Shown: positions 16,088-54,493 of the stretch, one piece after another | Layout: every line of letters starts with the position of its first letter | How positions within the stretch are numbered: position 1 is the first letter of the stretch | Assembly: GCA_947623805.1 (NCBI GenBank) | Contig: CANQHZ010000008.1 | Span: 1 to 61,870, forward strand | DNA: 61,870 nucleotides | Source of the DNA: an uncultured Lachnospiraceae bacterium | GTDB lineage: Bacteria > Bacillota > Clostridia > Lachnospirales > Lachnospiraceae | Direction: 5' to 3' | Notes under the pieces: generated by a model | Databases searched by the model: none | What the model saw: only the letters and a program-made list of their open reading frames with translations | What the model was told of the DNA's origin: nothing | Position numbers and translations under genes: made by a program

Positions 16088-17029
16088 GAAAGCAGACAGG
16101 GTTATCAGAAACTTAATACAGGGGGGGGGTATAGAAAGTTTATTTTATTTCCATTTGGTGATAATGGAATGATGATAAAAAATATTTTAAATTTGCGCTA
16201 TGGCATTCAGGAAGAATATATTGTTGACAATAAACTGTCAGAAATATCTAATAATAAAAACATTATTAGTTTAAAGGATTTAAAAGAGAAAAACATTGAT
16301 GACATGATTATACTATTAACAAGTGATATGAATAATATTTATTCAGAAATCCGTAAACAGTTAATGGAAGTGGTTGATATAGAAAAAATAGTAGATGTAT
16401 TTTCCTATTCGGTTTATTTTGATAAGGACATGTACTATAATGTTACGGATTTTAAAGATGATCCAAGATTAATGGCGTTAGAATCAGCTGCCAGAGAAAT
16501 ATATTACAATCATGTAGATGGAGCAATAGCAGAATGTGGGGTTTATCAAGGTGGGTTTGCCAATTACATGAGCCGTTTTATGCCTGATAGGAAATTATAT
16601 TTGTTTGATACTTTTTCTGGATTTGATGATAGGGATATTACCCCACAGGAACAAATTGATTCAGGTCGGTTTAGGAGAGAACATATGCATGATGATACGT
16701 CGGTTGAACTTACCTTGAGTAATATTGGATATTGTACCAATGCAGTTGTGCGAAAAGGATATTTCCCAGATACAGCAATAGGATTGGAAGAAGAAAAATT
16801 TGCATTTGTAAGTTTGGATACAGATTTGTATAAACCTATATTGGCGGGATTGGAGTTCTTCTGGCCTAGACTGAATCCTGGTGGATATATATTTGTAGAT
16901 GATTTTAGACATCCATTACTACTAGGAGTAAGGAAAGCGGTTATAGAATTTTGTAAAAGGGAGGGAATCGGTTATATGAGTCTGCCAGATGGAACAGATG
17001 CTACGGCAGTCATTTCAAAACCCTTGTAA
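16074..17029 (+). CDS. TylF/MycF-type O-methyltransferase, out of phase because of a G9 tract
   Basis: ATG 16074 overlaps the LicD gene and has a GGGAGG site 9 bases upstream. It opens a frame that enters nine Gs at 16121 and then stops at TGA 16170. The rest of the gene continues in another frame from before the ATG at 16169. With ten Gs the two parts join into 318 residues: an N-terminal Rossmann-like module containing KFILFPFG and YIVDN, then the TylF-like core with GAIAECGVYQGGFANYMS, LYLFDTFSGFDD, FVSLDTDLYKP and FVDDFRHP (metal-binding Asp pair). As sequenced the gene is OFF unless internal ATG 16169 is used. The product would methylate a hydroxyl on a sugar of the glycan. Confidence 0.75.
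16121..16129 (+). repeat. Poly-G tract, G9 (phase-variation tract A)
   Basis: Nine consecutive Gs in ACA-G9-TATA. Nine Gs leave the upstream ATG out of frame with the methyltransferase; ten (or seven) put it in frame. Confidence 0.9.
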
Positions 17030-17033
17030 ATTC

Positions 17034-17450
17034 ATGAGAAAGTTAATTGGTTATACTGCAGGAACCTTCGATATGTTTCATATTGGACATTTGAATCTTT
17101 TGAAAAATGCCAAGTCTCGGTGTGATTACCTAATTGTTGGTGTTAATTCTGATAAGCTTGTAGAAGAATACAAAGGAAAAAAAGTAGTAGTTCCTTTGGT
17201 TGAAAGGATGGAAATAATAAGAGCCCTTCGTTTTGTAGATGAGGTGATATCAGTAGATTCTTTGGATAAAAGGATAATTTGGGATCAAAAACACTATGAT
17301 TTACTTTTTATCGGAGATGATTGGAAAGGAAATCCCAGGTGGGAAACCACGAAAAATGAAATGAAACAGTTTGGTGTGGAAACCATATTTTTGCCTTATA
17401 CGAAAGGAACGAATTCTACTCTGCTAAGAGAAAAGTTACAAGATTATTAG
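17034..17450 (+). CDS. TagD-like cytidylyltransferase
   Basis: The 138-residue single-domain nucleotidyltransferase shows GYTAGTFDMFHIGHLNLL (HxGH), FIGDDWKG and the terminal GTNSTLLREK motif, matching the glycerol-3-phosphate cytidylyltransferase family in length and order. It would make CDP-glycerol or a similar CDP-polyol. ATG 17034 lies 4 bases after the methyltransferase stop with no separate ribosome site, so it depends on translational coupling. When the G tract upstream is out of phase, polarity could also lower this gene's output. Confidence 0.8.
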   Translation: MRKLIGYTAGTFDMFHIGHLNLLKNAKSRCDYLIVGVNSDKLVEEYKGKKVVVPLVERMEIIRALRFVDEVISVDSLDKRIIWDQKHYDLLFIGDDWKGNPRWETTKNEMKQFGVETIFLPYTKGTNSTLLREKLQDY

Positions 17451-17475
17451 AAAATTTGATTTGGAGGATACATAG

Positions 17476-19401
17476 TTGCATAATTTGAGGGATGAAATAA
17501 ATTTTTATTTGACGGAGGAAGAATGTAGGCGACTATTTAATGGCAAGAAAGTATTTGTGTTTGGAACAGGAGTTGATGCAGAACAATTTACACAGGAATT
17601 AGAGGATTGCATAGGCATCAGAGCATATATTGATAATAGGCGGGCAGAGTATGGCAGTATGTTTTATGGTAAGAATGTTATTAGCTTAAAACAAGGATTA
17701 GAGAACCGTGGACCAAATGAACCTATTATTATTGCTACTTATAGATTTGCAAGGGAAATTATAAAACAATTGGAGGAAGTTGGATTAATATCGGGCGTGG
17801 ATTTTTTTGTTTATGATAATATGCAGATTTTTCACGCAGATGAGATTACGGAAAGTTATATAAGCTTTTTGAGCAATATATGGAAAGAACATAAAAAATC
17901 CAACATATCTAAGAAAATACTGGTTCCATTCGATAATAGACATGATTTGATGTCAGTAGTGTATGCATATTGTGGTAATTATTTCGCAGAAAAATACAAT
18001 GCCTCTATATATGCGTATTTCAGGGGAGGAGCAGTATATTCAAATATTTCAGAAACCATAAAAAATATATACAGAGCATTTAATGTTGAGGATGTAATCA
18101 ATACAGAATTGGTTAAGGATTTGCAAAATGAAGCTGACAACATATGCTCAGCTGTTTGGAGAAAAGCGTCAACATGGGAGGATTGGGATAACATTACAAT
18201 ATATGGAATACATTTTGGTACTACAATTATAAGAGATTTTTTGAGAAGGTATATTCCTACTTTTGATTTAAGAGAAGAAAAAATGTATCAGTTTTTACAG
18301 AGAACAATTAGAACAATCGTTTTCTGGTATCATTATATTTTTGAGAATGATGTTAGTGTTGTTTTGTTGGCAGATGGAGTAAGCTGGGACGGGTATATTA
18401 GAGATATAGCTATTTCAAAAGGAATCCCTACATACGCATTGGGTTATAAGATGGCTAAGATGACGTTAGACTATTGCGATAGAGCTCAGTATCCGTATTT
18501 TAAAGAAATGTGGATGCAATTAACAAATGATGAGCAAATATATGGAATGAAGTGGGCTAAAGAGCATATTGCAAAAAGGCTGCGTGGAGGAACGGAGGAG
18601 GTTTTTTATACTAATAAAAATAATTTTACTTTTGCTGAAAAGAAAAAGAATAATCGCATATTAGAAGATAATGATAAATTAAAGATTATCATATGTCCAC
18701 ATATATTTGAAGAAGACTGCTATTGGTGTGGAAAGCAAATTTTTGATAATAATTATTTTGCATGGCTGTGCCATTTAGGAGAGCTTTCCGAAAAAACTCC
18801 AGATTATGATTGGTATTTAAAGATGCATCCTTTTGCACAAAGGAGAGACATGATAATTATTAATATGCTATTAGAAAAATATCCAAGGATAAAGAAAATT
18901 CCGTCAAATGTATCGCCATTACAGCTTAAAGAAGAAGGAGCTGCTTATGCGCTTACTGTCTATGGAACGATTGGGCATGAGTTCCCAGAAATCGGAATTC
19001 AAGTAATTAATGCAGGAGTCAATCCTCATAGCGCATATGATTTTACTTGGAATCCTCAAACGAAAGAAGAATATGATGATTTAATTTTGAACTTAGAAAA
19101 TTTAGAAACAAAAGAAGATTATGAAGGTTTGTATCAATTTTATAGTTTGAATTATCTATATTACGACTGGGAGTACATACCATTTCGGAAATTATTTTTT
19201 GAAAATCCAATCTTGGCAATGGATAAATTAGAACTAAAAAATTACGGTAAAGACTTAGGAACCTGGAAGTATGAGGAATACATGAAAGAGTGGACAAAAG
19301 AAAAGCATGAGCAAATTATGAATCAAATGGAAAGCATATTTCAAAAACTTGACGAATGGGAACCGAATATATTGTATAAAAGAAAAGTAATAATTGAATA
19401 A
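17476..19401 (+). CDS. Large putative glycan-synthesis protein with N-terminal Rossmann-like module
   Basis: The gene starts at TTG 17476 after TTGGAGG and encodes 641 residues. Residues about 24-110 are the recurrent module of this locus (KVFVFGTGVDAEQF, AYIDNRR). The body is not confidently recognised. KMHPFAQRR and the late VYGTIGHEFPEIG resemble GT-B capsule-synthesis or glycerophosphotransferase-like enzymes (an R/K-x-HP block and an acidic, glycine-rich donor-site block). It is soluble, with no signal peptide. I expect a transferase using an activated sugar or polyol, but the donor is unknown. Confidence 0.45.
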   Translation: MHNLRDEINFYLTEEECRRLFNGKKVFVFGTGVDAEQFTQELEDCIGIRAYIDNRRAEYGSMFYGKNVISLKQGLENRGPNEPIIIATYRFAREIIKQLEEVGLISGVDFFVYDNMQIFHADEITESYISFLSNIWKEHKKSNISKKILVPFDNRHDLMSVVYAYCGNYFAEKYNASIYAYFRGGAVYSNISETIKNIYRAFNVEDVINTELVKDLQNEADNICSAVWRKASTWEDWDNITIYGIHFGTTIIRDFLRRYIPTFDLREEKMYQFLQRTIRTIVFWYHYIFENDVSVVLLADGVSWDGYIRDIAISKGIPTYALGYKMAKMTLDYCDRAQYPYFKEMWMQLTNDEQIYGMKWAKEHIAKRLRGGTEEVFYTNKNNFTFAEKKKNNRILEDNDKLKIIICPHIFEEDCYWCGKQIFDNNYFAWLCHLGELSEKTPDYDWYLKMHPFAQRRDMIIINMLLEKYPRIKKIPSNVSPLQLKEEGAAYALTVYGTIGHEFPEIGIQVINAGVNPHSAYDFTWNPQTKEEYDDLILNLENLETKEDYEGLYQFYSLNYLYYDWEYIPFRKLFFENPILAMDKLELKNYGKDLGTWKYEEYMKEWTKEKHEQIMNQMESIFQKLDEWEPNILYKRKVIIE

Positions 19402-19460
19402 TGAATTATTAAAAATTAGTACATAAAATTCAGCATAATGTTTTGTCTGGAGTGAATACG

Positions 19461-20531
19461 ATGAATAATAAAGAAACCGAAAAATATGTAGGCTATCCCC
19501 AAATGACGATAGTTGAAGCGATGCGGAAAATTGATATTACCGGGAGTGGTATTTTATTTATTGTAGGCGAATACGGGCAGCTGATGGGGACACTGACAGA
19601 TGGGGATATTCGCAGGTGGCTGATAAAAACAGGCGATTTAAATATTACGGTTTCTGATATTATGCAGAACAATCCATTCTTTTTATCGGATGTAGATAGA
19701 GCACATGCATTAGAAAAAATGATTGAAAAACGTTTGCGTGCATTGCCGATTGTCAATGAACAGCGTCAGATTACAGATATTATTTTCAACACATATAATG
19801 TGAATGAGGGAATTTGTGGGATATCACATGCTTTAAAGAATGTACCTGTTGTAATCATGGCGGGTGGAAAAGGGACAAGGCTGTTACCATATACGCATGT
19901 GTTGCCAAAACCACTCATTCCTATTGGTGACAAGCCAATATTGGAGATGATTATAGATCAGTTCTGTAAATATGGCTGTGAAAAGTTTTTTTTGATACTT
20001 AACTATAAAAAAAATATGATTAAGGCCTACTTTAATGAGCTTGGACATGATTATCAGATTGAATACATTGAGGAGAAAGAGCCGTTGGGAACTGGTGGCG
20101 GCTTATCATTATTGAAAGATAAGCTGAGAGGGACATTTATTTTATCAAATTGCGATATTTTAATAAGGGATGACTTTTCTAGCATGCTGGATTTTCACAA
20201 GAATAGTGGCAACAAAATAAGCATGATTTGCTCATTAAAAAATTTTAAGATACCATATGGAATTGTTCATATGGGGCCGCATGGAGCAGTGGAATCTATG
20301 GAAGAAAAGCCTACAGTGTCTTTTTTTACGAATACGGGCGTATATTTTATCGAATCTGAAATCTTGGAAGAAATACCAAATGATACTTTTATGGGATTTC
20401 CTGAGATTATAGATAGACATAGAAAGCATGGAAATCAGGTGGGTGTATATCCAATAAGTGAATCGGCATGGCTTGACATGGGACAAGCCGAAGAACTTGA
20501 AAAGATGAAGAAAAACTTTGAAGGGATATAA
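19461..20531 (+). CDS. CBS-domain sugar nucleotidyltransferase (PtmE-like, nonulosonate pathway)
   Basis: The 356-residue protein has two CBS motifs in residues 1-120 (GTLTDGDIRRWL, then ALPIVNE) followed by an NTP-transferase domain with VVIMAGGKGTRLLPYTHVLPKPL (about residues 132-154) and GTGGGLSLL. This domain pair is that of PtmE, which makes GDP-glucosamine for legionaminic acid in Campylobacter. It neighbours NeuD-, NeuA-, NeuB- and LegB-like genes, which supports the assignment. ATG 19461 is preferred to the in-frame TTG at 19443 because it follows TGGAGTG. The stop codon is adjacent to the next start, so they are co-translated. Confidence 0.8.
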   Translation: MNNKETEKYVGYPQMTIVEAMRKIDITGSGILFIVGEYGQLMGTLTDGDIRRWLIKTGDLNITVSDIMQNNPFFLSDVDRAHALEKMIEKRLRALPIVNEQRQITDIIFNTYNVNEGICGISHALKNVPVVIMAGGKGTRLLPYTHVLPKPLIPIGDKPILEMIIDQFCKYGCEKFFLILNYKKNMIKAYFNELGHDYQIEYIEEKEPLGTGGGLSLLKDKLRGTFILSNCDILIRDDFSSMLDFHKNSGNKISMICSLKNFKIPYGIVHMGPHGAVESMEEKPTVSFFTNTGVYFIESEILEEIPNDTFMGFPEIIDRHRKHGNQVGVYPISESAWLDMGQAEELEKMKKNFEGI

Positions 20532-21155
20532 ATGAAGAAAATCGTTTTGATAGGATATGGTGGACATGCTGAAAGCATTATAGACAGCATTAAGCAGGCA
20601 GGGGTATATGAAATTGTAGGCTATACTGATTTGAAAAAAGCAGATTTTGAGACAGATTATCCTTATTTGGGAAACGATGATGTATTGGCAGATGTTTATA
20701 GTAAGGGTGTTGACAGCGCTGCGATTTGTATTGGATATTTAGGCCAATCTGATATTAGGGACAGGCTGTATGAGAAAGTAAAGAGAATCGGTTTTCGATT
20801 ACCATGTATTGTAGATAAGACGGCAGCTTTGGCAGCAGATGTTTTGATTGAGGATGGCAGTTATGTGGGAAAAGGAGCGATAGTCAATTCAAAAAGTAAG
20901 ATTGGTAAGATGTGCATTGTTAATTCGGGTGCAGTGGTCGAACATGGGAATCGAGTGGGGGATTTCTCACATGTGTCTGTAGGTGCAGTATTATGTGGAA
21001 ATGTTATGGTTGGTGATCATGTTTTTGTGGGGGCAAATGCGACAGTTGTTCAGGGAGTAAACATCCAAGCATATAGCAGTATTGGGGCAGGGACAATTGT
21101 TTTAAAGGATGTTCCAGACAATACAAAGGTATATGGGATATGGAATGGTAAGTAG
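20532..21155 (+). CDS. NeuD/PglD-family sugar N- or O-acetyltransferase (LegH-like)
   Basis: The 207-residue protein has an N-terminal Rossmann-like UDP-sugar domain (KIVLIGYGGHAESIID) and a left-handed beta-helix of hexapeptide repeats (about residues 95-195). It includes the catalytic-type His in NSGAVVEHGNRVGDFSHVSVGA. Such enzymes acetylate amino sugars in bacillosamine and nonulosonate pathways. Between a PtmE-like gene and nonulosonate genes, a LegH-type N-acetyltransferase is the best guess. It starts directly at the previous stop. Confidence 0.8.
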   Translation: MKKIVLIGYGGHAESIIDSIKQAGVYEIVGYTDLKKADFETDYPYLGNDDVLADVYSKGVDSAAICIGYLGQSDIRDRLYEKVKRIGFRLPCIVDKTAALAADVLIEDGSYVGKGAIVNSKSKIGKMCIVNSGAVVEHGNRVGDFSHVSVGAVLCGNVMVGDHVFVGANATVVQGVNIQAYSSIGAGTIVLKDVPDNTKVYGIWNGK

Positions 21156-21156
21156 T

Positions 21157-21975
21157 ATGAAAACGGTATTTGGAAGCGTTGTTTATCAAAGTGCATTAGA
21201 ATATTTGGAAGATTTTATGCACTCTGTAGATGAACAAGTTGATTGCGATTTTTCGCTGTTTTTGTTAAATGATAACATAAGTCCGGAGATACTGAAAAAA
21301 AGATTATTAAGATATTCCGTTCAGATGAATATTGAACATTTTGATAATAAAACACCTGTGCAGCTAAGGATAGAATTGCTGAAAAAGGCGAAACATGAAA
21401 ATGTAGATTTATTGATAATTGGAGACTGTGACGATTTTTTTTCTAATGCCCGTGTATCAAATACAATCAATGCCAGTATTGAAAATCCGGAATATACTTT
21501 TTTTTATAATGAATTGCGGGACATGCAGGGGATAAGCATTATGCCTGTGTTACCGGAATATATAGAGGATTTTAAAGAGATTGGCGAATATAATTTCTTG
21601 GGATTGTCCAATACTGCGATAAATATGCGGAAAATTAGTAGTGATTTTATTGATTCACTAGAAGGATACCCATATGAGATTTTTGACTGGTATCTTTTTT
21701 CACGGATGTTATTGGAAGGCGGGAGTGGGAAAAGGGTAGATGGCTGTTTTACAGTATATCGAATACATGAAAATAATATTGCGGGGATACAGAGATTTAA
21801 TGAGTATAATGTGAAGCATGAAATCGAAGTGAAAAGAAAGCATTATGGCAGCCTAAAGAAATACCACAAATATTATGAGGAAAAATATAATCAATATCAA
21901 CAGGTAAATGGTTTACAATATTTGAGTGAACGAAAAAAATATTTCTGGTGGAACTTGTTGAGGGCAAATGAGTAA
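21157..21975 (+). CDS. GT2-like glycosyltransferase
   Basis: The 272-residue protein starts MKTVFGSVVYQSALEYL. It has a GT-A-like core with LLIIGDCDDFFSNARV (residues about 87-102) supplying the acidic metal site, and a late FDWYLFSRM acceptor-side block. It lacks the usual long C-terminal part. ATG 21157 overlaps the tail of the acyltransferase region by adjacency only. It probably adds a sugar to the glycan; donor unknown. Confidence 0.6.
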   Translation: MKTVFGSVVYQSALEYLEDFMHSVDEQVDCDFSLFLLNDNISPEILKKRLLRYSVQMNIEHFDNKTPVQLRIELLKKAKHENVDLLIIGDCDDFFSNARVSNTINASIENPEYTFFYNELRDMQGISIMPVLPEYIEDFKEIGEYNFLGLSNTAINMRKISSDFIDSLEGYPYEIFDWYLFSRMLLEGGSGKRVDGCFTVYRIHENNIAGIQRFNEYNVKHEIEVKRKHYGSLKKYHKYYEEKYNQYQQVNGLQYLSERKKYFWWNLLRANE

Positions 21976-22004
21976 ATATAGAGAAGATGAGGAGATAAAA
22001 TAAA

Positions 22005-22661
22005 ATGGAAGGAACATCACATGAGATTCTTTGGAAAGGAAGCTTTGGAAACGAATATACGGTAAGAAATAGGCATGGCGAAGAAATGATAGCATGTAGA
22101 GTGGGAAATCTGGCAAGATGTTTGGCGCGGGCGGATTATATTTCAAGTTCTTTGGAAATTGGAAGTAATATCGGATATAACGAGATTGCGCTACAAAGAT
22201 TATATCCAGATATAAAGATGGATGTTGTAGAAATAAACAAGTATGCTGCTGACGAATGTGCAAAGATAAAAAATGTAAGTGTATACAATACATCGGTATA
22301 TGATTTTACTACGGAAAACAGATATGATCTCACTTTTGTAAATGGGGTGCTTATATACATAGATTTGGATAAATTGGCAAAGGTGTATGAGAGCTTATAT
22401 ACATACAGTAAAAAGTACATTTTAATTGTGGAATATTATAATCCTACGCCAGTTGATGTGAAATATAGAGGTCTGGATGGACAAATGTGTAAACGCGATT
22501 TTGCAGGAGAAATGCTGGATAAATATAGTGATCTTAATTTATTGGATTATGGTTTTATCTATCATCGTGATAAAGCTTTCCCTATGGATGATTTTAACTG
22601 GTTTTTGTTAGAGAAAATATCAAAAACATATACGGGGGGGGGGTATAATGATGGCTTATAA
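22005..22661 (+). CDS. Pseudaminic-acid-associated methyltransferase (PMAM-type)
   Basis: The 218-residue SAM-dependent methyltransferase starts with the WKGSFGNEYTVRN signature of the pseudaminic acid biosynthesis-associated methylases (TIGR03587-like). A SAM-binding LEIGSNIGYNE and VNGVLIYIDLDKL follow. The family sits in flagellin-glycosylation loci, giving one of the best hints to the purpose of this region. The last codons read through a G10 tract (22634-22643) and overlap the next gene. Losing one G would fuse this protein to its neighbour, while eleven Gs would shorten it by three residues. Confidence 0.75.
   Translation: MEGTSHEILWKGSFGNEYTVRNRHGEEMIACRVGNLARCLARADYISSSLEIGSNIGYNEIALQRLYPDIKMDVVEINKYAADECAKIKNVSVYNTSVYDFTTENRYDLTFVNGVLIYIDLDKLAKVYESLYTYSKKYILIVEYYNPTPVDVKYRGLDGQMCKRDFAGEMLDKYSDLNLLDYGFIYHRDKAFPMDDFNWFLLEKISKTYTGGGYNDGL
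22634..22643 (+). repeat. Poly-G tract, G10 (tract B)
   Basis: Ten Gs in TAC-G10-TATAATG, at the end of the methyltransferase and 4 bases before the next start. With G9 the two genes would form one fused frame. The tract can also act as a Shine-Dalgarno sequence for the next gene. Confidence 0.9.
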
Positions 22662-23646
22662 TATTGTTTCCATGGGATGTGCATGTGGTGTCGCAAGATC
22701 TATGGAAAAATATGGATTGCGGCAATGTTCAGGACCTTTTGACTGGTATGTTTCTAAGTTTAGCTCTTTGCTGCATTTTATGGAAACTGATTTTTCAGAT
22801 TTTTTGGATAGGAAAAATATAAAGATTTCATCCAGGCCAAATGAATTTTATGATGAAAAGTATGACTGTTATTTTGCAAATGAAATAACATATGACTTTG
22901 ATGATGAATGGGATTCTGTTTACAACAAATATCAAAGAAGGATAAAAAGATTTCAGCAAATAACAAAATCACCAACGTATTTCATCAGATGTATTCGGGA
23001 TGAGGATGAAGAAAAATATATCTATGAAAATTATGAGTATATTTTATCGATTATTAAGGAGCAGAATGATCTAAATGAAATTATTTTTCTGGGGAGAAAG
23101 GATTCTGTTGAGGGATTTCCGTTCAAATATTTTCCAATAGGATACCAAGTCGGCGATTGTGCCTATAATATTGCAATAGGAAATAATTGGCTGTTTGATA
23201 GAAATTATGATATTTTGAAGTTCCTTTGCGGAGAACTGCCTGAAGAAAGAATTATTAAAAATCTTTTCTTTTACAGGAAAAAGCTTGCTCAAAATGAGTT
23301 GGTAATAAGGGATAGGTATGCAATGGCTGTTAAATTGCTTCAGTGCAAAGAGGAAGAATGGCTTGGCAGACTTCCAGAGCATATAATAATATACGGGGGG
23401 GGGGTAATCGGAAAGGCTTTATATGATAAATGCAAGAAATTCTGCAGTGTGGAGAGTTTTGTAGACCGACACCCAAATGCAAGCAATTATGATGGAGTGA
23501 AAATAGTGCATTATACGGACATTGTTTCACTGAAAGGAAAGAATTTCGTTATAACGCCAATATATGATATCCAAAAAATATCTAAAATAATTTCTAAATA
23601 TAAACCAGACGCCAATATTATTCCATTGGATAAAATATTGATTTAA
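22648..23646 (+). CDS. DUF1796-type papain-like protein with C-terminal Rossmann-like module
   Basis: The 332-residue protein begins MAYNIVSMGCACGVARSMEKYGL, and CSGPFDWYVS follows. This matches DUF1796, a putative papain-like cysteine peptidase family found in glycan loci (Cys about 11-13). Residues about 248-332 are the module shared by many proteins here, starting IIIYGGGVIGKALYDKC. A second G10 tract (23395-23404) encodes the glycine loop. A change of one G would delete the module while leaving the N-terminal domain. Start is ATG 22648 or 22651, with the upstream G tract as ribosome site. Confidence 0.65.
   Translation: MMAYNIVSMGCACGVARSMEKYGLRQCSGPFDWYVSKFSSLLHFMETDFSDFLDRKNIKISSRPNEFYDEKYDCYFANEITYDFDDEWDSVYNKYQRRIKRFQQITKSPTYFIRCIRDEDEEKYIYENYEYILSIIKEQNDLNEIIFLGRKDSVEGFPFKYFPIGYQVGDCAYNIAIGNNWLFDRNYDILKFLCGELPEERIIKNLFFYRKKLAQNELVIRDRYAMAVKLLQCKEEEWLGRLPEHIIIYGGGVIGKALYDKCKKFCSVESFVDRHPNASNYDGVKIVHYTDIVSLKGKNFVITPIYDIQKISKIISKYKPDANIIPLDKILI
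23395..23404 (+). repeat. Poly-G tract, G10 (tract C)
   Basis: Ten Gs inside the coding sequence for IIIYGGGVIG. In the current length the frame is open; G9 or G11 would truncate the C-terminal module. Confidence 0.9.
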
Positions 23647-23684
23647 AAATATTGTTTTGATTGTGTATTAAGTGGGGAGTGGAT

Positions 23685-24371
23685 ATGTTAGCGATTATTC
23701 CTGCAAGAGGAGGTTCCAAAGGGCTGCCAGGAAAAAACATAAAAAATTTAGATGGGAAACCGCTGATTTCTTATACGATAGAAGCAGCATGTGCAGCAGA
23801 ATGTATAGATAGGGTTGTTGTTAGTACTGATGATGAAAAAATTGCTGAGATTTCACGAAGATGCGGCGCAGAGATACCTTTTATCAGAGAACAGAAACTG
23901 GCATCAGATGATGCGTCTGCGATAGATGTGTATATAGATGCGATAAGTCGGTTGGGGGCTGAATACAAGAAGAAACCATTTATGGTTTTGCTGCCTACAG
24001 TTCCATTTCGGACAGCGAAACATATAGATGAAGCTTATAAGTTGTTTTATAAGGAAAATGCAAGAACTTTAATTTCTGTAATGCAGGCAGAAATACCTGC
24101 GAGTTGGTATTTGTCGGTTAATGAAGATGGATTTTTGTCTTCATTAGGATATGGAATGAAAAACGGCAATGTACAGAATCGACAGAACAATCTGATTGAG
24201 TATGTGCCAAACGGAGCAATTTATATTTTGGATTACACATTGCTGAGTGAAAAGCGTACATATTATTGTGAGAGTACAGTACCATATATTATGTGTGGGC
24301 AAGATTCTGTGGATATCGATACATTAGAAGACTTTGAATATGCAGAGTTTCTGATATGTAAGAAAAAATAG
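23685..24371 (+). CDS. neuA: CMP-nonulosonate cytidylyltransferase (NeuA/LegF-like)
   Basis: The 228-residue protein has the CMP-sialic acid synthetase motif IIPARGGSKGLPGKNIKNL at its start. VVSTDDEKIAE, LLPTVPFRT and SVDIDTLEDFEYAE at the C-terminus follow. It activates a nine-carbon sugar (sialic, legionaminic or pseudaminic type) with CTP. ATG 23685 follows GGGGAG; an in-frame TTG at 23661 is less likely. It directly precedes the synthase gene. Confidence 0.88.
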   Translation: MLAIIPARGGSKGLPGKNIKNLDGKPLISYTIEAACAAECIDRVVVSTDDEKIAEISRRCGAEIPFIREQKLASDDASAIDVYIDAISRLGAEYKKKPFMVLLPTVPFRTAKHIDEAYKLFYKENARTLISVMQAEIPASWYLSVNEDGFLSSLGYGMKNGNVQNRQNNLIEYVPNGAIYILDYTLLSEKRTYYCESTVPYIMCGQDSVDIDTLEDFEYAEFLICKKK

Positions 24372-24387
24372 GAAGGGTATTGATTGT

Positions 24388-25434
24388 ATGTTTAGTTATC
24401 CGGATTTATGCAGCGATAAAACAAAACCTTATGTTATAGCTGAAATAGGGGCAAATCACAATGGCGATATGGAACTGGCTAAGAAAATTATTGATGAGGC
24501 AGTATGTTGTGGAGCAGATTGTGTAAAATTTCAGTCATGGACGAAAGAATCTATTTTTTCTAAAAAGACATATGAGGATAATTTTTTTCTTGGAGATGAT
24601 TATCGCAATAGAAAGGATTATACACTGGAGCAGATTGTTGACAAATATCATATTGATTTTGAAAAGCATAAAGAATTAAAACGTTATTGTGACAGCAAGG
24701 GGATTGACTTTAATTCAACACCATTTTCAAAGAAAGAAATGGATTTGCTAACAGATGATATAGGTGTGCCATTTATCAAAATTGCTTCTATGGATTTGAA
24801 CAATATCCCCTTTTTAAAGTATGCAGCAGGAAAGAAGAAACCCGTAGTACTCAGTACAGGGTTATGCGGTTTGACAGAAATAAATAACGCTGTAGAATGT
24901 CTTGAAAAAGAGGGCTGTGATGAAATTGTATTGTTGCATTGCGTCTCAATTTATCCGCCCCAGGATGAAGAAGTAAATTTGAATAATATAGATATGCTGA
25001 AAAAGAATTTTGGGTATCCCGTGGGGTATTCAGACCATACGATTGGGACTGTTGCTCCGATTATGTCTTTAGCAAAAGGTGTAAAAATTATAGAAAAACA
25101 CTTTACGATTGATAAAAACATGGAAGGCTGGGATCACAAAATATCAGCGGATCCACCTGAATTAAGGACAATATGCGATGCCGCGAAAACTGGCTATAAG
25201 ATGCTTGGGAGCTTTAGAAGGCATGTAAACGAAACTGCCGAACGCCGAGAGGCATTTCAAAGGAGTATAGTAGCTGCGAGAAATATAAAAAAAGACGAAA
25301 TTATTTCTATGGAGGATATCGATTTTAAACGTCCGGGAATCGGAATTGCACCGCAATATTACAATTTTATTGTTGGAAAAACTGCAAAAAGAGATATAGC
25401 GTATGATGAAATAATACAATTAATGGATTTTTAA
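24388..25434 (+). CDS. neuB: Nonulosonate synthase (NeuB/LegI-like)
   Basis: The 348-residue protein has a NeuB TIM barrel: VIAEIGANHNGDMELAKKI (residues about 14-32), KFQSW, STPFSKKEMD, KIASMDLNN and GYSDHTIG. A SAF antifreeze-like C-terminal domain (about 285-348, ending with RPGIGIAPQYYNFIVGKTAKRDI) follows. It condenses phosphoenolpyruvate with a six-carbon amino sugar. The LegB- and PtmE-like neighbours favour a legionaminic-type substrate over N-acetylneuraminic acid. Confidence 0.9.
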   Translation: MFSYPDLCSDKTKPYVIAEIGANHNGDMELAKKIIDEAVCCGADCVKFQSWTKESIFSKKTYEDNFFLGDDYRNRKDYTLEQIVDKYHIDFEKHKELKRYCDSKGIDFNSTPFSKKEMDLLTDDIGVPFIKIASMDLNNIPFLKYAAGKKKPVVLSTGLCGLTEINNAVECLEKEGCDEIVLLHCVSIYPPQDEEVNLNNIDMLKKNFGYPVGYSDHTIGTVAPIMSLAKGVKIIEKHFTIDKNMEGWDHKISADPPELRTICDAAKTGYKMLGSFRRHVNETAERREAFQRSIVAARNIKKDEIISMEDIDFKRPGIGIAPQYYNFIVGKTAKRDIAYDEIIQLMDF

Positions 25435-25451
25435 GCAGGGAGGGCATGTAA

Positions 25452-26834
25452 GTGGGAAAAGATGTGTATGTAGTGCATTGCATTGATACGGAAGGCCCAT
25501 TATATGAGTCTATAGATGCAACATTTGCAAGGTTAAAAGAAATTTTTGGCATAGAGATGGAACCATCCATAGAGAATTTAAGAAAGCTGCAGAATAAGGA
25601 GATTGATTTAAAAGGTGCAGAAAATCTTGTTGCGGATGCGTTTGCTGAAAAACGTATTAAGACATTGGGCACTTGGGATCAGATTGATGATGTATTGGAT
25701 GAACTGATGTCGGAGAAATTTAGAACACAGCTTTTGGATTCAGATGGTAATGGATGGGTTTATAATTGGTTCTGCATTGATCATGCTGGATTTGAGGGAG
25801 ATAATCCGAGGCGTCGGGATGCAGGATATGGGAATATATATCGGCATTATTATATGAAACTGCGTGAACACAGATGTGAACAAAAAGATTTATTGCAATT
25901 TCACTATCATCCGTTGCCTTTTAATGGGGCTTATAATTATGCAGGTACATCATATGTGAATTCAGATAATCTGTTTCAGATTTTGGCAAAGAGGATAATT
26001 GACAATCATTCATTTCCGGCAGCTTATCGTGCAGGTATGGAAGCGGAAAGACCTGATGCACACTGGTTTTTGGAACAGTGGATACCATTTGATTACTCCT
26101 GCAATTCGTATTATAAGGAAAATGCAGAGCGTCAGCCAGATCTTAGAGATGGCAGATACGGTGACTGGCGGAGGGCGACAAAAGAATGGAGACCATATCA
26201 CCCTAGTCATGACGATTATCAGATTCCCGGAAACTGTCATAGATGGATAACAAGATGTTTAAGTTTGGATTCCAGATTGATAAAACTGGAATTTAGTGAT
26301 GTAGAGCAAGCATTTACTCAAGCAGAGAAGGGAAAGCCGACGATTTTGTCATTTTCAAGTCATGATTTTAGGGATATGCGCACAGAAGTTATATATGCAC
26401 AGAATTTAATACGCATGGCATCAGAAAAATATCCAAATGTGAGATTTCATTATTGTAATGCGATTGAAGCTATGCAAAGGGCAGAAAGTTTAACACCGAT
26501 ATATGCAGAGTTGGAATTAACGTTGTATGCGGACAAAGAAAAAAATGCAGCGGTATTACGCGCAAGAGCGCAAGGTAAGATATTTGGAACGCAGCCGTTT
26601 TTCTGCTTTAAAACAACAACAGGAAAATATTATTGGGATAACTTGGACTATGGAGAAAATAAAAGGGAATGGTCGTATGTTTTCGATGATAAGACCTTTA
26701 ATTTAAGTGCTATAGAGCAAGTAGCTATATCTGCAAATACACCGGAAGGAATGACGGAGATTGTTATTTATAATGTGACCGAGGATAAAAAAGAACATTA
26801 TTATCTTGAAAATACGGTTATGAAATGTAGGTAA
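25452..26834 (+). CDS. Uncharacterised protein of nonulosonate clusters, possibly deacetylase-like
   Basis: GTG 25452 follows GGGAGGG; the product has 460 residues. The start VYVVHCIDTEGPLYES recalls the first strand of polysaccharide deacetylases (Asp-x-Glu). Further conserved-looking histidines occur in LLQFHYHPLPFNG, HPSHDDY and SFSSHDFRDM, consistent with a metal site. The last 110 residues look like a beta-rich accessory domain. I do not recognise a named family. Its place between the synthase and the LegB-like dehydratase suggests a step on a nonulosonate precursor or product. Confidence 0.5.
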   Translation: MGKDVYVVHCIDTEGPLYESIDATFARLKEIFGIEMEPSIENLRKLQNKEIDLKGAENLVADAFAEKRIKTLGTWDQIDDVLDELMSEKFRTQLLDSDGNGWVYNWFCIDHAGFEGDNPRRRDAGYGNIYRHYYMKLREHRCEQKDLLQFHYHPLPFNGAYNYAGTSYVNSDNLFQILAKRIIDNHSFPAAYRAGMEAERPDAHWFLEQWIPFDYSCNSYYKENAERQPDLRDGRYGDWRRATKEWRPYHPSHDDYQIPGNCHRWITRCLSLDSRLIKLEFSDVEQAFTQAEKGKPTILSFSSHDFRDMRTEVIYAQNLIRMASEKYPNVRFHYCNAIEAMQRAESLTPIYAELELTLYADKEKNAAVLRARAQGKIFGTQPFFCFKTTTGKYYWDNLDYGENKREWSYVFDDKTFNLSAIEQVAISANTPEGMTEIVIYNVTEDKKEHYYLENTVMKCR

Positions 26835-26838
26835 AGAA

Positions 26839-27819
26839 ATGAAAAGAGTATTAGTGACAGGTGCAGATGGTTTTATTGGAAGCCATTTGACTGAATTATT
26901 AGTAAAATCCGGATATAAAGTAAAAGCGTTTGCATTTTATAATTCTTTTGGCACATATGGGTGGATTGACTATCTGCCAGACGAAATAAAAAGCGAAATA
27001 GAGATTTTTTATGGAGATATCAGGGATCCGAATGGTGTCAGGGAGGCAGCAAGGAATACAGATGGTATTTTTCATTTGGCGGCGCTTATTGCAATTCCAT
27101 TTAGTTATCATTCACCAGATTCTTATGTTGATACAAATATAAAAGGAACATTAAATGTTTTACAGGCAGCGCGGGAGTTGGAAACGTCAAAAATTATTAT
27201 TACATCCACATCAGAAGTGTATGGAACGGCACAATATGTGCCGATTGATGAGAAGCATCCGTTTCAAGGACAGTCTCCATATTCTGCCACAAAAATAGGT
27301 GCAGACCGACTTGCGGAAAGCTTTTACAGGAGCTTTGGCATGCCAATTTCTATTGTGCGTCCTTTTAATACATATGGTCCAAGACAGTCAGCTAGAGCTG
27401 TTATTCCGACAATCATTACGCAGCTATTGTCGGGTAGTCAGGAGATAAAGCTAGGGGCGTTAAAACCAACCAGAGATTTTAATTATGTGTTGGATACCGT
27501 AAATGGTTTCAAGAAAATATATGAGTCGGAAAATACTGTTGGAGAAGAAATTAACATTGCTACCATGAAAGAAATATCAATAGGCACGTTAGCAGAGGAG
27601 ATTATAAGACAGATTAATCCGTCAGCAAAGATTATATGTGATGAAGAACGACTCAGGCCCGAAAAAAGTGAAGTGAACAGACTGCTTGGAGATAATGCAA
27701 AAATAAGAAAACTGACAGGATGGGAACCGAAATATACTTTGGAGCAGGGAATTAGTGAAACGATAAGGTGGTTGGAGGATAATTTGTCATTTTATAAGGC
27801 GGGTGTATACAATATATAG
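26839..27819 (+). CDS. NAD-dependent 4,6-dehydratase/epimerase (LegB-like)
   Basis: The 326-residue extended SDR has VLVTGADGFIGSHLTELL at the N-terminus, the catalytic YSATK (residues about 152-156) with upstream TSTSEVYG, and PFNTYGPRQSARAVIPTII. This pattern is typical of the GDP-GlcNAc 4,6-dehydratase LegB group. With the PtmE-like enzyme it would give the keto-sugar on the legionaminic path. The aminotransferase and hydrolysing epimerase normally following are not in this window. It starts 4 bases after the preceding stop. Confidence 0.78.
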   Translation: MKRVLVTGADGFIGSHLTELLVKSGYKVKAFAFYNSFGTYGWIDYLPDEIKSEIEIFYGDIRDPNGVREAARNTDGIFHLAALIAIPFSYHSPDSYVDTNIKGTLNVLQAARELETSKIIITSTSEVYGTAQYVPIDEKHPFQGQSPYSATKIGADRLAESFYRSFGMPISIVRPFNTYGPRQSARAVIPTIITQLLSGSQEIKLGALKPTRDFNYVLDTVNGFKKIYESENTVGEEINIATMKEISIGTLAEEIIRQINPSAKIICDEERLRPEKSEVNRLLGDNAKIRKLTGWEPKYTLEQGISETIRWLEDNLSFYKAGVYNI

Positions 27820-27834
27820 AAAAGAGGGGCGATT

Positions 27835-29001: not shown

Positions 29002-29016
29002 TTAAAGTGGAGAAAG

Positions 29017-29097
29017 GCATGTGGAAAAACTAGAAAAAGGATAGAATATTTTGTTTTCGTCCCTTTATTGAAAGTGAAAAGAGAGTTCTCCACATGC
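29017..29097 (+). promoter_or_regulatory. Long-range inverted repeat in the leader of the next GT2 gene
   Basis: GCATGTGGA (29017-29025) and TCCACATGC (29089-29097) are perfect 9-bp arms about 63 bases apart. The right arm covers an in-frame ATG at 29094. Folding would hide that start, so the structure may control initiation or favour the inner ATG at 29175. Confidence 0.35.
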
Positions 29098-41777: not shown

Positions 41778-41814
41778 ACGAAGAAAAAGTCAAAGGAGAT
41801 ATGATTATAGTTTT

Positions 41815-43275
41815 ATGAATGACATAAAATTACTGGATATACATAATCTGGATTTTATCAGAAAAGAAAAGATCATAATATATGGAGCGGGAAAATATGG
41901 GGATTATCTGTATTCGTTTTTGGAATTAAAGGGATTGGGGCAAAATGTTGTTTGTTTTGCAGTATCGGCTCAGGAAGAAAATCCTGATTTCTTTCATACA
42001 AAACCAGTTAAGACTATAGATAAGCTTCGGGAAGAGCTGAAAGATTCCATTGTAATTGTTGCCATTGGTGCTTCTCAAATAGGCAGGGTAGTTGAACGGT
42101 TGCAAAAAAATATCGTGAGAGGAATATATCATGTCAGCAAAGAAACAATTGAAGATGTAACAAAAGAAATTATTGCTGAAAGCAGGAAACTGCCGATTGA
42201 GAAAAACAAGGTGATTTTTTCAAATTATGATGGAATGGGGTATGGTGGGAATTGTAAATATATTGCGGAAAAATTTATCGGCGGACATTATCCTGTAAAG
42301 CTTGTGTGGGCAGTTTCAGATAAGAACATACAAGGGATACCGGAGCAGATAGAGAAAGTAATGATTGGAACACCGCGTTATTACAGGGAATTGTTTACAT
42401 CGGGTACATATATAACAAATACGGTTCATAATCTTTACGAGCAAAAAAGGGAAAGGCAGTTTTTTATCAATACATGGCATGGTTACGGTCCGTTTAAGCT
42501 TGCAGAGGGTGCTGTGAACAAGGATGCCGTGAGCAGGGAGCGGTACAGCAAAAGTAATGCTGCAAGTGATTTATTCTTAACAGCAAGCCGTTTTTATACC
42601 AAAATATACAGGGAATCTTTTTTTTATGAAGGCGAAGTGATGGAGTGCGGTGCGCCGCGAAATGATGTGTTTTTTACGGATAATGAAATAAAAGCTTCCG
42701 TATACAAAAAGATTGGGATTCCTTTTGACAAAAAAATCCTGCTTTATGCACCGACATTTCGAGAAGATACAGGCAGTTCGTTCCAAAAATATGATATTGA
42801 TATGAAACGCGTTGTGAATGCTTTAGGACAGCGGTTTGGGGGCGAATACATTTTGGTATACCGTTTCCACCATTATTTATATGCATTAGGAATGCCCCAA
42901 AACTTTTATGCGGATGCAGTTGATGCAACTTACTATGAGGATATCCAGGAGCTTTTAGTAGCGGCAGATATTGTGATTACCGATTACTCATCGCTTATGT
43001 GGGATTTTTCATTGCAAAAGCGGCCGGTATTTTTGTATCAAAATGATGAAAGGGATTATGAAAATGACAGGGGGTTTTATTCTCCCGTGTCAGAATGGCC
43101 ATACCCCAAAGCACACACGCAGGAAGAATTAATTGACGCCATAATACATTTTGATAATGACAGCTATATAAAAAAACTGAATGCCTTTTTTGAGGAGTAT
43201 GGTTCATGTGATGACGGACATGCAGCAGAAAGGGTTGTCAAAAGGATTATGAACGAGATAGATAAAGATAGATAG
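41815..43275 (+). CDS. CDP-glycerol glycerophosphotransferase with N-terminal Rossmann-like module
   Basis: The 486-residue protein is built like the 39031 gene: module in residues 1-110 (KIIIYGAGKYGDYLYSFL), then the transferase with TWHGYGPFKLAEG (His-Gly block), LYAPTFREDTG, YRFHHYLY and DIVITDYSSLMWDF. Here the classical HP pair is replaced by HH, a possible specificity difference. Two such enzymes side by side suggest alternate or sequential polyol-phosphate transfers. Confidence 0.83.
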   Translation: MNDIKLLDIHNLDFIRKEKIIIYGAGKYGDYLYSFLELKGLGQNVVCFAVSAQEENPDFFHTKPVKTIDKLREELKDSIVIVAIGASQIGRVVERLQKNIVRGIYHVSKETIEDVTKEIIAESRKLPIEKNKVIFSNYDGMGYGGNCKYIAEKFIGGHYPVKLVWAVSDKNIQGIPEQIEKVMIGTPRYYRELFTSGTYITNTVHNLYEQKRERQFFINTWHGYGPFKLAEGAVNKDAVSRERYSKSNAASDLFLTASRFYTKIYRESFFYEGEVMECGAPRNDVFFTDNEIKASVYKKIGIPFDKKILLYAPTFREDTGSSFQKYDIDMKRVVNALGQRFGGEYILVYRFHHYLYALGMPQNFYADAVDATYYEDIQELLVAADIVITDYSSLMWDFSLQKRPVFLYQNDERDYENDRGFYSPVSEWPYPKAHTQEELIDAIIHFDNDSYIKKLNAFFEEYGSCDDGHAAERVVKRIMNEIDKDR

Positions 43276-43287
43276 GTGGTATTTTGG

Positions 43288-45171
43288 GTGGAAGTGCAAT
43301 ATAGAAAAGATATGACTTCCGTATTTGTGTTGGAGGAAAATCAGCCAGATTTATCTTGGTTTTTGAAACAGTTTCTGAATCAAAAAGAGGAAGTGCTATA
43401 TTTTGTAAATGATGAAAAGCTAAGGGCTGTAGTGTCTATCGGAGATTTATTCAAATGCCTGGATGGCAGGAAAAAGGAAATCTTAAATACGGACTTTACA
43501 TGTGTACATGAGAAGGATGATGAAAAAATGCTTGCCTTTTTTGGAACTCATCCAACAATTCATGAGCTTCCGTTAATTGACGACGATGAACGGTTCATTG
43601 GTATTGTGAAATCTGGGAAATGTAATTCTGACAGAACTTGGGACAGTTTCCGAATGTACGCGAAGAGCCTGTATTATGATGAAAAAGCCTTTTATATAAA
43701 AACGGCAGAAAAGTTTATGAAACATTTCAAAGGAATTGTGTTTTTGGCAAACCTGCCAGATGATGATTTGGCAGTCAGCTGTTTAAAGAGCAGTGATGAA
43801 CAAGAAAACTTTAATAAGAGGAGCCAAATAGACGCTTTAACACATTTAAGAAATATGACAGGGCAGGAGGAAAAGATATATTGGGGAGATACCGTTTATG
43901 AATCAGGAATTTCTAGGCGTTTTGCGGAGGAATTCTCAAAAATAGAAGTCACCGAAAAAAATGGGATTAAATATTTTGATAGCAATATATCATCGCATTA
44001 TATCACATTTGAAAATGGAAAAAGAAAGCTGCCAAACCAAAACAGTAATGCGAAAAGGAAGATTTACCTTGCCGGTCCATGTACTATATTTGGAGCATAT
44101 GTGACAGACAATCAAACAATTGAATACTATCTGCAACAAATTATTAATGATAATGGATATGAATGGCAGGTGGTCAATTTGGGGGCGCTTGGACCTGGCT
44201 ATGAATTTCAGTATTTGCTGACAGAGTGTATACACGACGAGGACATTGTACTGATTGCATTTCAAAGCAGGAACTGGACTGCGTCTTTTATGGAACAATA
44301 TCAGAATGTGCATTATATAGGGAACTTTTCGGATATATTTGTCAATATACATAATCCGCTTTCATGTATTTTGGATACATTTCGACACACAAATTACAAA
44401 ATATCAGAACTGATTGCCGAGCGGATTTACGCATCAGTGCAGCCATATCTTGGGCATGAGAGCTGCATAAAAAAGAGGGATGATTTTAAGGGTCCGATTC
44501 AAAACTATTTTATCGCATGGGATATTTATGTATATTATAAAGATTTTGCATTGAACTATGACCTTGGAAATCTAGGAGGAACTGTTGGAGCGATTGTAAT
44601 GAACTGTAATCCGTTTACTAAGGGACATAGGTACTTAGCAGAATATGCTGCTGCAAGGACGGATACGCTGATTATATTTGTTGTAGAGGAGGATGCGTCA
44701 GTATTTTCTTTTGCTGACCGTATTGAGATGGTGCGGAAAGGAACACAGGATATCGGCAATATAAAAGTTGTACCATCTGGGAAATACAGTATTTCAAAAA
44801 GCACATTTTCGCAATATTTTGAAAAGGATAAGACAATCAGCCAAATTAACTCAATGGAATATGATGTGCGTATATTTTGTGAAGTAATTGCAGAGTGCAT
44901 GAACATATCATGTCGGTTTGTTGGAGAGGAACCGACCGATTTGGTGACAAGGAAGTATAACCAGACAATGAAGGAGCTGCTTCCGCTGTATGGTATAAAA
45001 TTGGACGAGATTCCAAGATTGAAAATGGATGAAGGATACATAAGCGCATCAAAAGTGCGTGAGTTGATTGCCACAGGGGGGGGGTATATACCAAATATGC
45101 TGCCAGAAACGACGATGCAGTATCTTAAAGAAATTGGTTATAATTGCGACCCTGGAGGAAAACAAGCATGA
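43288..45171 (+). CDS. Multidomain protein: CBS-like, SGNH-like and citrate-lyase-ligase-type nucleotidyltransferase
   Basis: From GTG 43288 (GGTGG upstream) there are 627 residues. About 1-110 look like a CBS pair (VNDEKLRAVVSIGDLFKCL, LPLIDDDERFIGIV). The middle (about 250-370) resembles an SGNH-like strand-helix domain starting KIYLAGPCTIFGAYV. The end (about 430-620) is a CitC-type nucleotidyltransferase: MNCNPFTKGHRYLAEYAA, FSFADRIEMV and the closing ISASKVRELIATGG. CitC makes an adenylated intermediate on citrate lyase; here the fold probably activates another acid or phosphate. A G9 tract at 45076 lies in the last motif. Confidence 0.6.
   Translation: MEVQYRKDMTSVFVLEENQPDLSWFLKQFLNQKEEVLYFVNDEKLRAVVSIGDLFKCLDGRKKEILNTDFTCVHEKDDEKMLAFFGTHPTIHELPLIDDDERFIGIVKSGKCNSDRTWDSFRMYAKSLYYDEKAFYIKTAEKFMKHFKGIVFLANLPDDDLAVSCLKSSDEQENFNKRSQIDALTHLRNMTGQEEKIYWGDTVYESGISRRFAEEFSKIEVTEKNGIKYFDSNISSHYITFENGKRKLPNQNSNAKRKIYLAGPCTIFGAYVTDNQTIEYYLQQIINDNGYEWQVVNLGALGPGYEFQYLLTECIHDEDIVLIAFQSRNWTASFMEQYQNVHYIGNFSDIFVNIHNPLSCILDTFRHTNYKISELIAERIYASVQPYLGHESCIKKRDDFKGPIQNYFIAWDIYVYYKDFALNYDLGNLGGTVGAIVMNCNPFTKGHRYLAEYAAARTDTLIIFVVEEDASVFSFADRIEMVRKGTQDIGNIKVVPSGKYSISKSTFSQYFEKDKTISQINSMEYDVRIFCEVIAECMNISCRFVGEEPTDLVTRKYNQTMKELLPLYGIKLDEIPRLKMDEGYISASKVRELIATGGGYIPNMLPETTMQYLKEIGYNCDPGGKQA
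45076..45084 (+). repeat. Poly-G tract, G9 (tract D)
   Basis: Nine Gs in ACA-G9-TATATACC encode three glycines in IATGGGYIP. Present length is in frame; a one-base change would replace the last 27 or so residues and could disturb the overlapping start of the next gene at 45168. Confidence 0.9.
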
Positions 45172-53144: not shown

Positions 53145-53248
53145 AGAAAACTTGGATAAATACAGGATGATTGTTGACAGAATGTATTTTCTAATTATTC
53201 AGAACAGTGGCTGGGCATTAAGGCAGCTGAGTTTTAGAGGAGGTCTAT

Positions 53249-54493
53249 ATGAACGTTAGTTACCGCAATACCTATATGATTGATACGAAAAAACCAGCAG
53301 GAGGAATAAGGGACTTAAAAAATGCGGGGATTCAGAATTTAATGCTCTGTATTTCGGCATGGCTTTGGCCGCCAGAAGAAGAACAGGAGGAAATGCCAAG
53401 GTGGGGGGGGAAGAAAAATGTGCGCAAACGGGAGACACCAGATACGATAAAGAATCGTTATATGGATATGATTACAGCCTGCCGAAGAAACGGGATAGGG
53501 ATATCGGTTTTGTATGCGCCGCGCTTTTCACGAAAAAAAGATAAACCCTGGCTGCAGGATTACATAACGGACATGATGCTAGAATGTATCGAATTTTGCA
53601 AAAGAGCAGGGTGTCCATATCTGATTGTCGGCATGCCTGAAAAAGATTATGATTATATTGGTTTTTATGGAAAGCTTTCTGCAAAAGCGCGGGAAGCGGG
53701 AATAATGATATTGTTGATTAATCAAGCGGAGGATTTTGCGGGACATTTGGTACGAGGCGCTTTATGTGAATCACATGCTGTGGTAGAGCTGATAGACCAG
53801 CTGAATCACGATGCGGGAAATAATGTATTCGGATTCTGTCTTGATATGGGTGTCTGCAATATCTGTGGGAATGACGTGCAAAGTTTTATCAATACGCTTG
53901 GGAACAGGCTAAAGGCTGTGATATTGCGTGATAATGATGGACATCATAACACTGCGCAGATGCCGTTTACCTGTGCGCATGGGGAAAGCCTTGCAACTGA
54001 TTGGATAGGGTTAATCAGAGGTCTTCGTGATATATGTTTTCAGGAAGAACTGATTGTTGATTTTACGGATACACTGGCTGTATTTTCACCACTCCTGCGC
54101 CCGACACTGTTTCGCCTTGCCTGCGAAGTCGGGAATTATATTAAATGGCAGATCCAGCTAGAGCAGAATTTGAAAAAGTATAAATCAATCGTCCTGTTCG
54201 GTGCCGGCAATATGTGCAGGAATTATATGAAATGTTATGGCGGAAAATATCCACCTCTCTTTACCTGTGACAACAATCCCAAGCTCTGGGATACGGAGTT
54301 TGAGGGACTTACTGTAAAAAATCCGGAGGAATTAAAGAATCTTCCCGATGACTGCGGTGTCTATATCTGCAATATATACTACCGCGAGATTGAAACACAA
54401 CTTAGGGAAATGGGAATCAAAAACATAGAGTATTTTAACGATGAATATATGCCGACATTTTATTTTGACAGGCTGGAGCGTGACGAAGAATAG
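53249..54493 (+). CDS. Sugar-phosphate isomerase/epimerase-like TIM barrel with C-terminal Rossmann-like module
   Basis: The 414-residue protein has a xylose-isomerase-like barrel, with PYLIVGMPEKDYDYIGFY, GFCLDMGVCNICGND and LRDNDGHHNTAQMPF giving the metal-site side chains. The module follows at about 310-405 (SIVLFGAGNMCRNYMK, FTCDNNPKLWD). A G8 tract at 53403 encodes a WGGKKN loop near residue 55 that sits in a lysine/arginine-rich insertion. TTAGAGGAGG precedes the start. Confidence 0.75.
   Translation: MNVSYRNTYMIDTKKPAGGIRDLKNAGIQNLMLCISAWLWPPEEEQEEMPRWGGKKNVRKRETPDTIKNRYMDMITACRRNGIGISVLYAPRFSRKKDKPWLQDYITDMMLECIEFCKRAGCPYLIVGMPEKDYDYIGFYGKLSAKAREAGIMILLINQAEDFAGHLVRGALCESHAVVELIDQLNHDAGNNVFGFCLDMGVCNICGNDVQSFINTLGNRLKAVILRDNDGHHNTAQMPFTCAHGESLATDWIGLIRGLRDICFQEELIVDFTDTLAVFSPLLRPTLFRLACEVGNYIKWQIQLEQNLKKYKSIVLFGAGNMCRNYMKCYGGKYPPLFTCDNNPKLWDTEFEGLTVKNPEELKNLPDDCGVYICNIYYREIETQLREMGIKNIEYFNDEYMPTFYFDRLERDEE
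53403..53410 (+). repeat. Poly-G tract, G8 (tract E)
   Basis: Eight Gs after GT at codons 52-54 of the isomerase-like gene. Present length is in frame; loss or gain of one G would truncate the protein early. Confidence 0.85.

Follow-up and report, generated by a model that had tools for sequence, protein, structure and literature searches.

Poly-G runs in a surface-glycan locus

Does a cluster of long G-runs in a bacterial glycan locus make that locus a contingency region, or is the cluster part of something wider? We addressed this question in the window, a stretch of 61,870 nt from an uncultured Lachnospiraceae bacterium that forms contig C8 of a 3.96-Mb draft genome (229 contigs). A first-pass annotation had reported five long runs, all in or at the edge of coding sequences of a glycan locus and none this long elsewhere in the window, and had attributed them to slipped-strand phase variation. 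All five runs are exact in position and length, and the other G or C runs of the whole window do not exceed 6. The runs and the genes around them are listed below; Pfam was searched with the window genes outside 23661-41815 and with a minority of the ORFs after 55442.

15143..16087, + strand: LicD-family gene (Pfam LicD, E 3e-37), just upstream of run 1
16074..17029, + strand: gene for a TylF-type methyltransferase, split by run 1 (the body matches Pfam TylF, E 6e-23)
16121..16129, + strand: run 1, G9 in ACA-Gn-TAT; splits the TylF-type methyltransferase gene
22005..22661, + strand: methyltransferase-like ORF, 218 aa (Pfam Methyltransf_12, E 2e-4, below cut-off); ends just past run 2
22634..22643, + strand: run 2, G10 in AC-Gn-TAT; junction of the methyltransferase-like and DUF1796 ORFs
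22648..23646, + strand: DUF1796 protein, 332 aa (Pfam DUF1796, E 2e-18); holds run 3
23395..23404, + strand: run 3, G10 in AC-Gn-TAA; in frame inside the DUF1796 protein
41815..43275, + strand: CDP-glycerol glycerophosphotransferase-type gene (Pfam Glyphos_transf, E 5e-78), upstream of the run 4 gene
43276..45171, + strand: 631-aa protein with a citrate-lyase-ligase-type nucleotidyltransferase end (Pfam Citrate_ly_lig at 437-617, E 3e-61)
45076..45084, + strand: run 4, G9 in ACA-Gn-TAT; in frame near the C-terminus of the 631-aa protein
53403..53410, + strand: run 5, G8 in GGT-Gn-AAG; in frame in a TIM-barrel gene

Runs 1-4 share the flank A(C/CA)-Gn-TA, as had been claimed. Run 5 is without it and lies in a TIM-barrel gene with no recognisable role in glycan synthesis (an AP_endonuc_2 match under the Pfam cut-off, with its own paralogue adjoining), so that the placement of all five runs in glycan coding sequence fails for this one. 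Because its flank is missing and it is outside the glycan genes, run 5 probably does not belong to the system and was not counted in it.

At the assembled length of run 1, the body of the methyltransferase gene (16130-17026) is out of frame with the short segment that begins at its ATG (16074). Two run-free homologues (L389, L390) have both TylF parts in one frame (..RLIIEG-YKKFYIYPFG), and a further one (L388) is also continuous, with a different start. Insertion of a ready-made module at this site is not favoured, since two homologues have a short GAAGGATAT there. The ATG of the DUF1796 ORF (22648) follows run 2 by four bases; this run could couple, fuse or separate the two ORFs, or act as a ribosome-binding site. 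Run 3 encodes part of a glycine-rich segment of the DUF1796 protein, IIIYGGGVIGK, which we take to be a Rossmann-like motif.

For run 4, 29 homologous loci were collected from other genomes of the family; none of the 20 readable at the site carries a run there, and at two of the 29 (L362, L375) a run of 8 Gs lies nearby, at another position. The same-genome paralogue on contig C34 (L067, 57% identical) has its G-run elsewhere in the gene. Being differently placed, the runs of the two paralogues arose separately. Here too a ready-made inserted module is not favoured: in the homologues the place is taken by a variable stretch of similar length.

Neighbouring genes of the locus (LicD, CDP-glycerol glycerophosphotransferase type, cytidylyltransferases, GT2, epimerase) suggest, by their domain assignments, a surface phosphopolymer. 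The interval 15000-24400 gave only partial matches to the 38 genomes of the genus (65-92% identity, the longest being 747 bp at 72%), which at the level of sequence comparison marks the locus as accessory and goes no further. The mobility of the 'mobile glycan island' proposed earlier does not follow from this or from the TraG-like and TnpB-like genes that lie near the window edges. The former is an 835-aa ORF with a TraG P-loop domain (58325-60832), which suggests a conjugative element at the right edge; the latter is a 485-aa ORF (7922-9379), TnpB-like by its Cas12f1-like TNB domain. An 870-aa ORF (9663-12275) that separates the TnpB-like gene from the glycan genes has no convincing Pfam match. 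An AAA_21 ATPase (AbiEii-type Pfam model, 3084-4310) and a putative Uma2 endonuclease (14478-15029) also lie beside the glycan locus. A search of the window for RNA families and tRNAs found none.

Long G-runs are spread over the genome

The clustering had been judged far from chance. Against sequence composition this is correct: for the window, Markov models of order 1-5, built with the runs masked, predict 0.06-0.84 runs of at least 8 Gs, and 0.008-0.22 when the minimum is set at 9. It does not hold against the genome's own run density. The genome has 59 maximal G/C runs of at least 8 (58 without one that begins a contig), which are spread beyond the glycan locus, and the absence of such runs elsewhere is thus true of the window and not of the genome. 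Five runs in 61.9 kb compare with 0.92 expected from the genome average (Poisson P = 0.003); as 7% of uniform placements reach at least five runs in some 50-kb bin, the window is not remarkable within its own genome.

G/C homopolymers are both longer and commoner than chance in this genome. Their length distribution drops and rises again at 9-10, with 27 runs of exactly 7 followed by 8, 28, 20 and 3 runs of 8, 9, 10 and 11. The run count is the highest among the 38 genomes of the genus (next, 35) and the third among 299 of the family, behind G183 (214) and G331 (121). Runs also lie close together: 25 of the 59 have a neighbour within 5 kb (mean 8 and maximum 23 in 5,000 uniform placements). 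Contig C10, unlike the window, is exceptional within the genome, with nine runs (P = 2e-7), a number never reached in 20,000 uniform placements. The longest ORF at a run is on the G strand in 44 of 59 cases and on the C strand in 6 (9 unclear). Our reading of the Pfam matches places about half of the 59 runs in or at genes from families often found in surface-glycan synthesis or modification; this is a raw share, and the methyltransferases in it are generic.

Three contigs (C30, C63, C120) start inside a G-run, compared with 0.07 expected for 458 contig ends. This reflects either a mixture of lengths or a sequencing failure at poly-G, which is described as troublesome for Illumina sequencing in the portion of PMC9187656 consulted.

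Two of the run-rich genomes deserve separate mention. G183 (L350-L353) has 214 runs of at least 8 Gs in 1.6 Mb and is 68% complete; the 22 runs sampled are 8-9 long and only one of them has TAC within 5 bases, while 11 of the 12 tested for frame are in frame, so that the phenomenon is apparently a different one. Helicobacter sp. 16-1353 (G348) has 142 such runs in 1.9 Mb.

Run length and reading frame

A run was tested for its effect on frame where at least 60 codons are open on either side, by comparing the best frames before and after it. These frames differ at 10 of 23 runs in the genome and at 15 of 47 in three relatives (G033, G034 and G035). The corresponding counts are 2/69 and 6/47 for runs of 5-6 Gs (Fisher P = 8e-6 and 0.046), and 0/26 and 0/12 for A-runs of at least 8 (pooled P = 5e-6). 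The share of tested runs that are in frame, 57% in the genome and 68% in the relatives, counts against phase variation.

Nine split genes were searched against Pfam with their halves apart, together with two further pieces alone. For three of the nine, the two halves hit consecutive stretches of a single family: WcbI (3-86 and 139-204), Ig_Rha78A_N (2-71 and 71-105) and MBOAT (80-252 and 258-317). For each of the remaining six, at least one half had no Pfam match. Some splits may be due to decay or assembly error, as 6/47 of the short-run controls in the relatives also look split. Together, the frame statistics, the split genes and run 1 indicate that run length sets the reading frame of otherwise intact genes.

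The same runs in related species

The three relatives list 96 runs. Five coding loci were matched by tblastn (71-99% identity) in a comparison that took in loci carrying a run. An AMP-binding gene has 9 Gs and is in frame in the genome, compared with 10 Gs and out of frame in G035, with almost the same sequence for 40 bp to either side. The MBOAT gene is split at 9 Gs in the genome and in G033 and in frame at 11 Gs in G034; apart from the run, its halves are open and 97-99% identical to the relatives' genes. A membrane-protein gene is in frame with 10 Gs in the genome and out of frame with 11 Gs in G033. Both length and frame thus differ between species at three of the five matched coding runs. 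The other two keep their frame state: the run at C13:12407 has 9 and 9 Gs and is out of frame in both genomes, and that at C13:7153 has 9, 9 and 10 Gs and is in frame in all, the flank compensating. The support that runs 1-4 receive comes from their class, not from variants of these four.

Poly-G runs in promoter spacers

Upstream of two genes for secreted LysM-domain proteins (C27:1333 and C64:11754), a G-run lies between TTGACA and a -10-like box (TATCAT, TATAGT). No run of the window is placed in this way. Homologous promoters in G033 (five) and G035 (one) read TTGACA-N6-TAC(A), Gs, TATAAT, with runs of 10, 10, 10, 12 or 11 Gs and an interrupted fifth copy in G033. Total spacers of the LysM promoters are 19-21 bp; the usual spacer between -35 and -10 boxes, 17 bp, is shorter. 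The C64 promoter and its counterpart on C36 of G033 have 10 and 10 Gs, with no change of length, and a promoter-like run at C87:9442 appears by eye to have 10 Gs in the genome and all three relatives. In two G033 promoters of the same form (L270, L273) a single T or A breaks the run, as though it had been locked.

We then scanned a collection of 84,980 species for TTGACA, 8-14 bases, G8 and TATAAT, a pattern to which spacers below 16 are invisible. At least 119 stretches were found, with about 3 expected by chance (arithmetic at equal base composition). The 80 loci listed (L097-L176) include many assemblies of gut Clostridia and Bacilli; Spirochaetia, Saccharibacteria, Streptobacillus and a Helicobacter are also among the matches listed. 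The 85 matches at these loci have spacers of 16 (15 matches), 17 (3), 18 (24), 19 (30), 20 (10) and 21 bp (3). Spacers of 17 bp are few among these listed matches, 3 of 85, compared with 15 at 16 and 54 at 18-19.

A role of the coding runs as internal promoters was rejected: before non-promoter TA runs, the mean score of the best -35 match was 3.2 in the genome, where control windows gave 3.1 and 2.9, and 3.1 in the relatives, where they gave 3.2 and 3.2.

A shared flank, (A)TAC-N10-TA

Many of the runs sit in one DNA context, (A)TAC-N10-TA, independent of reading frame. Flanks were counted for 56 of the 59 runs, three that touch a contig end being dropped. TA directly follows 42 of the 56, compared with 97 of 906 runs of 4-6 Gs in the same DNA (P = 2e-26). 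An origin at the protein level, for example a Gly-Gly-Tyr motif, was rejected: the reading-frame phases of the TA runs are evenly spread (11/8/8 upstream, 10/12/7 downstream), and the flank is therefore not a codon effect.

TAC stands exactly 10 bp before the run end in 21 of 56 cases (mean 8.7, maximum 18 in 5,000 permutations of run length). Where TAC abuts the run, n is 10 in 10/10; with one base between them, n is 9 in 9/10; with two, n is 8 or 9 in 5/5. Where TAC is near in the relatives, its distance is 10 or 11 in 14/19 (G033), 10/11 (G034) and 15/16 (G035), the permutation test being weaker there (P = 0.018).

In 27 chosen genomes, the motif GGGGGGGGTA was counted against its own reversal. 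A preference for the TA flank is seen in the genome studied (43 to 5), in a Bacilli genome (54 to 1), in Streptobacillus (23 to 4) and in a Spirochaetaceae genome (17 to 2); there is none in G331 (7 to 5). Helicobacter sp. 16-1353 is reversed, with AT before the run in 78 cases and TA after it in 34, the opposite of the Firmicutes pattern. Three runs of G331 and one of G352 were set aside as samples too small.

Origin and role of the runs

We consider it very probable that runs 1-4 are poly-G tracts of slippage phase variation, members by length and flank of a genome-wide set of contingency tracts. Polymerase slippage would change the number of Gs; inside genes, this would shift the frame and switch enzymes that make or modify surface glycans (methyltransferases, acyltransferases, sulfatases, nucleotidyltransferases), and at a few promoters it would alter the -35/-10 spacing of LysM surface-protein genes. 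The combined run states could give many surface types in one clone, plausibly acting against phages or host antibodies. The phase variation proposed by the first-pass annotation is well supported for the run class, by frame statistics, cross-species lengths, split genes and promoter spacers, and not as a property of this locus, the system being genome-wide and run 5 probably outside it.

Run lengths could instead be fixed in the genome, slippage of RNA polymerase or the ribosome giving a constant mixture of products and no heritable switch. Such slippage would still yield some full product from the split genes, and it agrees with the tight tie between run length and flank; the lengths of matched runs differ between related species, however, and product slippage is of no use to a run in a promoter spacer. 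We regard it as improbable. Ordinary mutational decay, in which runs grew by chance in accessory genes and the split genes are pseudogenes, appears to us equally so. Many run-bearing genes are indeed accessory, and short-run controls in the relatives are sometimes split (6/47). Decay would leave unexplained that the split halves are otherwise open, that the MBOAT halves are 97-99% identical to the relatives' genes, one of which is in frame, that long A-runs are without splits (0/38 pooled), and that run and flank recur in all reading frames and in paralogous promoters.

That the homopolymer lengths are artefacts of assembly or sequencing is the least probable of these alternatives, and very improbable as a general account. 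The assemblies are drafts, partly metagenome-derived, and poly-G is hard to sequence according to the part of PMC9187656 cited above, so individual lengths may be off by one; half of the runs are nevertheless in frame in open genes, the flanks are strongly non-random (42/56 against 97/906), long A-runs show no frame error and the same runs occur in independent species assemblies.

The strongest point against freely slipping runs is the tight flank-length tie in the genome, which free slippage does not predict. The two matched coding runs that keep their frame state, the C64 promoter pair and the C87 run with their constant 10 Gs, and the long spacers of the LysM promoters also count against the phase-variation reading. 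A different reading, which we hold to be unlikely though less so than the three just weighed, is that the runs represent copies of a defined DNA element, (A)TAC-N10-TA(T), which is placed regardless of frame, and that a sequence-specific process creates them or sets their lengths. A binding protein, a pause site of replication or repair, or directed tract formation would be candidates for this process. If so, these gut bacteria would carry a managed phasome and not a collection of accidental slippery sites.

With slippage phase variation as the preferred explanation, the finding is that a genome from a family with many gut bacteria carries some sixty poly-G runs, and that promoter-spacer poly-G occurs in many other gut Firmicutes assemblies. 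In commensals of the gut, surface variation would matter for resistance to phages, coating by antibodies and the stability of strains.

Comparison with known systems

In Campylobacter jejuni, many poly-G loci are present per genome and they are clustered in glycan loci, as in the genome studied. We know of no fixed (A)TAC-N10-TA context for Campylobacter poly-G; the one Helicobacter genome counted shows no preference for the TA flank (34, with 78 for the reversed pattern), whereas it is favoured here. The cgtB gene of C. jejuni, in the passages of PMC6437147 consulted, is a surface-glycan gene with an intragenic G-run of 8-9 in which a one-base change shifts the frame. The present coding runs are likewise intragenic, would set the frame by their length and in many cases lie in surface-glycan-type genes; C. 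jejuni, unlike the host here, is a Gram-negative pathogen.

The porA gene of Neisseria meningitidis has a poly-G between its -35 and -10 boxes whose length is said to set transcription (PMC3899988, in the part consulted). The promoter runs described here differ in that LysM surface-protein genes lie downstream and the spacers are 19-21 bp. Bifidobacterium breve is likewise a Gram-positive gut commensal with a G-tract dividing one gene: in the excerpt of PMC9187656 used here, the tract of a sortase-pilus locus separates two ORFs of one gene, and a range of lengths was measured that shifted in vivo. That excerpt concerns pilus genes, whereas the present set, as seen in assembled genomes, comprises about sixty runs, many of which lie in genes for glycan-type enzymes and some in promoters.

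The first-pass annotation had called such a design little described in Clostridia. In agreement, we recognised no account of poly-G phase variation from Lachnospiraceae or any other Clostridia in the PubMed Central open subset; Table 3 of a review gives long repeats in 153 genera, so that absence from print is not established. The mechanism itself is already known from Campylobacter, Neisseria and Bifidobacterium. Within the literature searched, what appears to be new is the scale that it reaches in this host group, the presence of runs both inside genes and in promoters, and the flank element.
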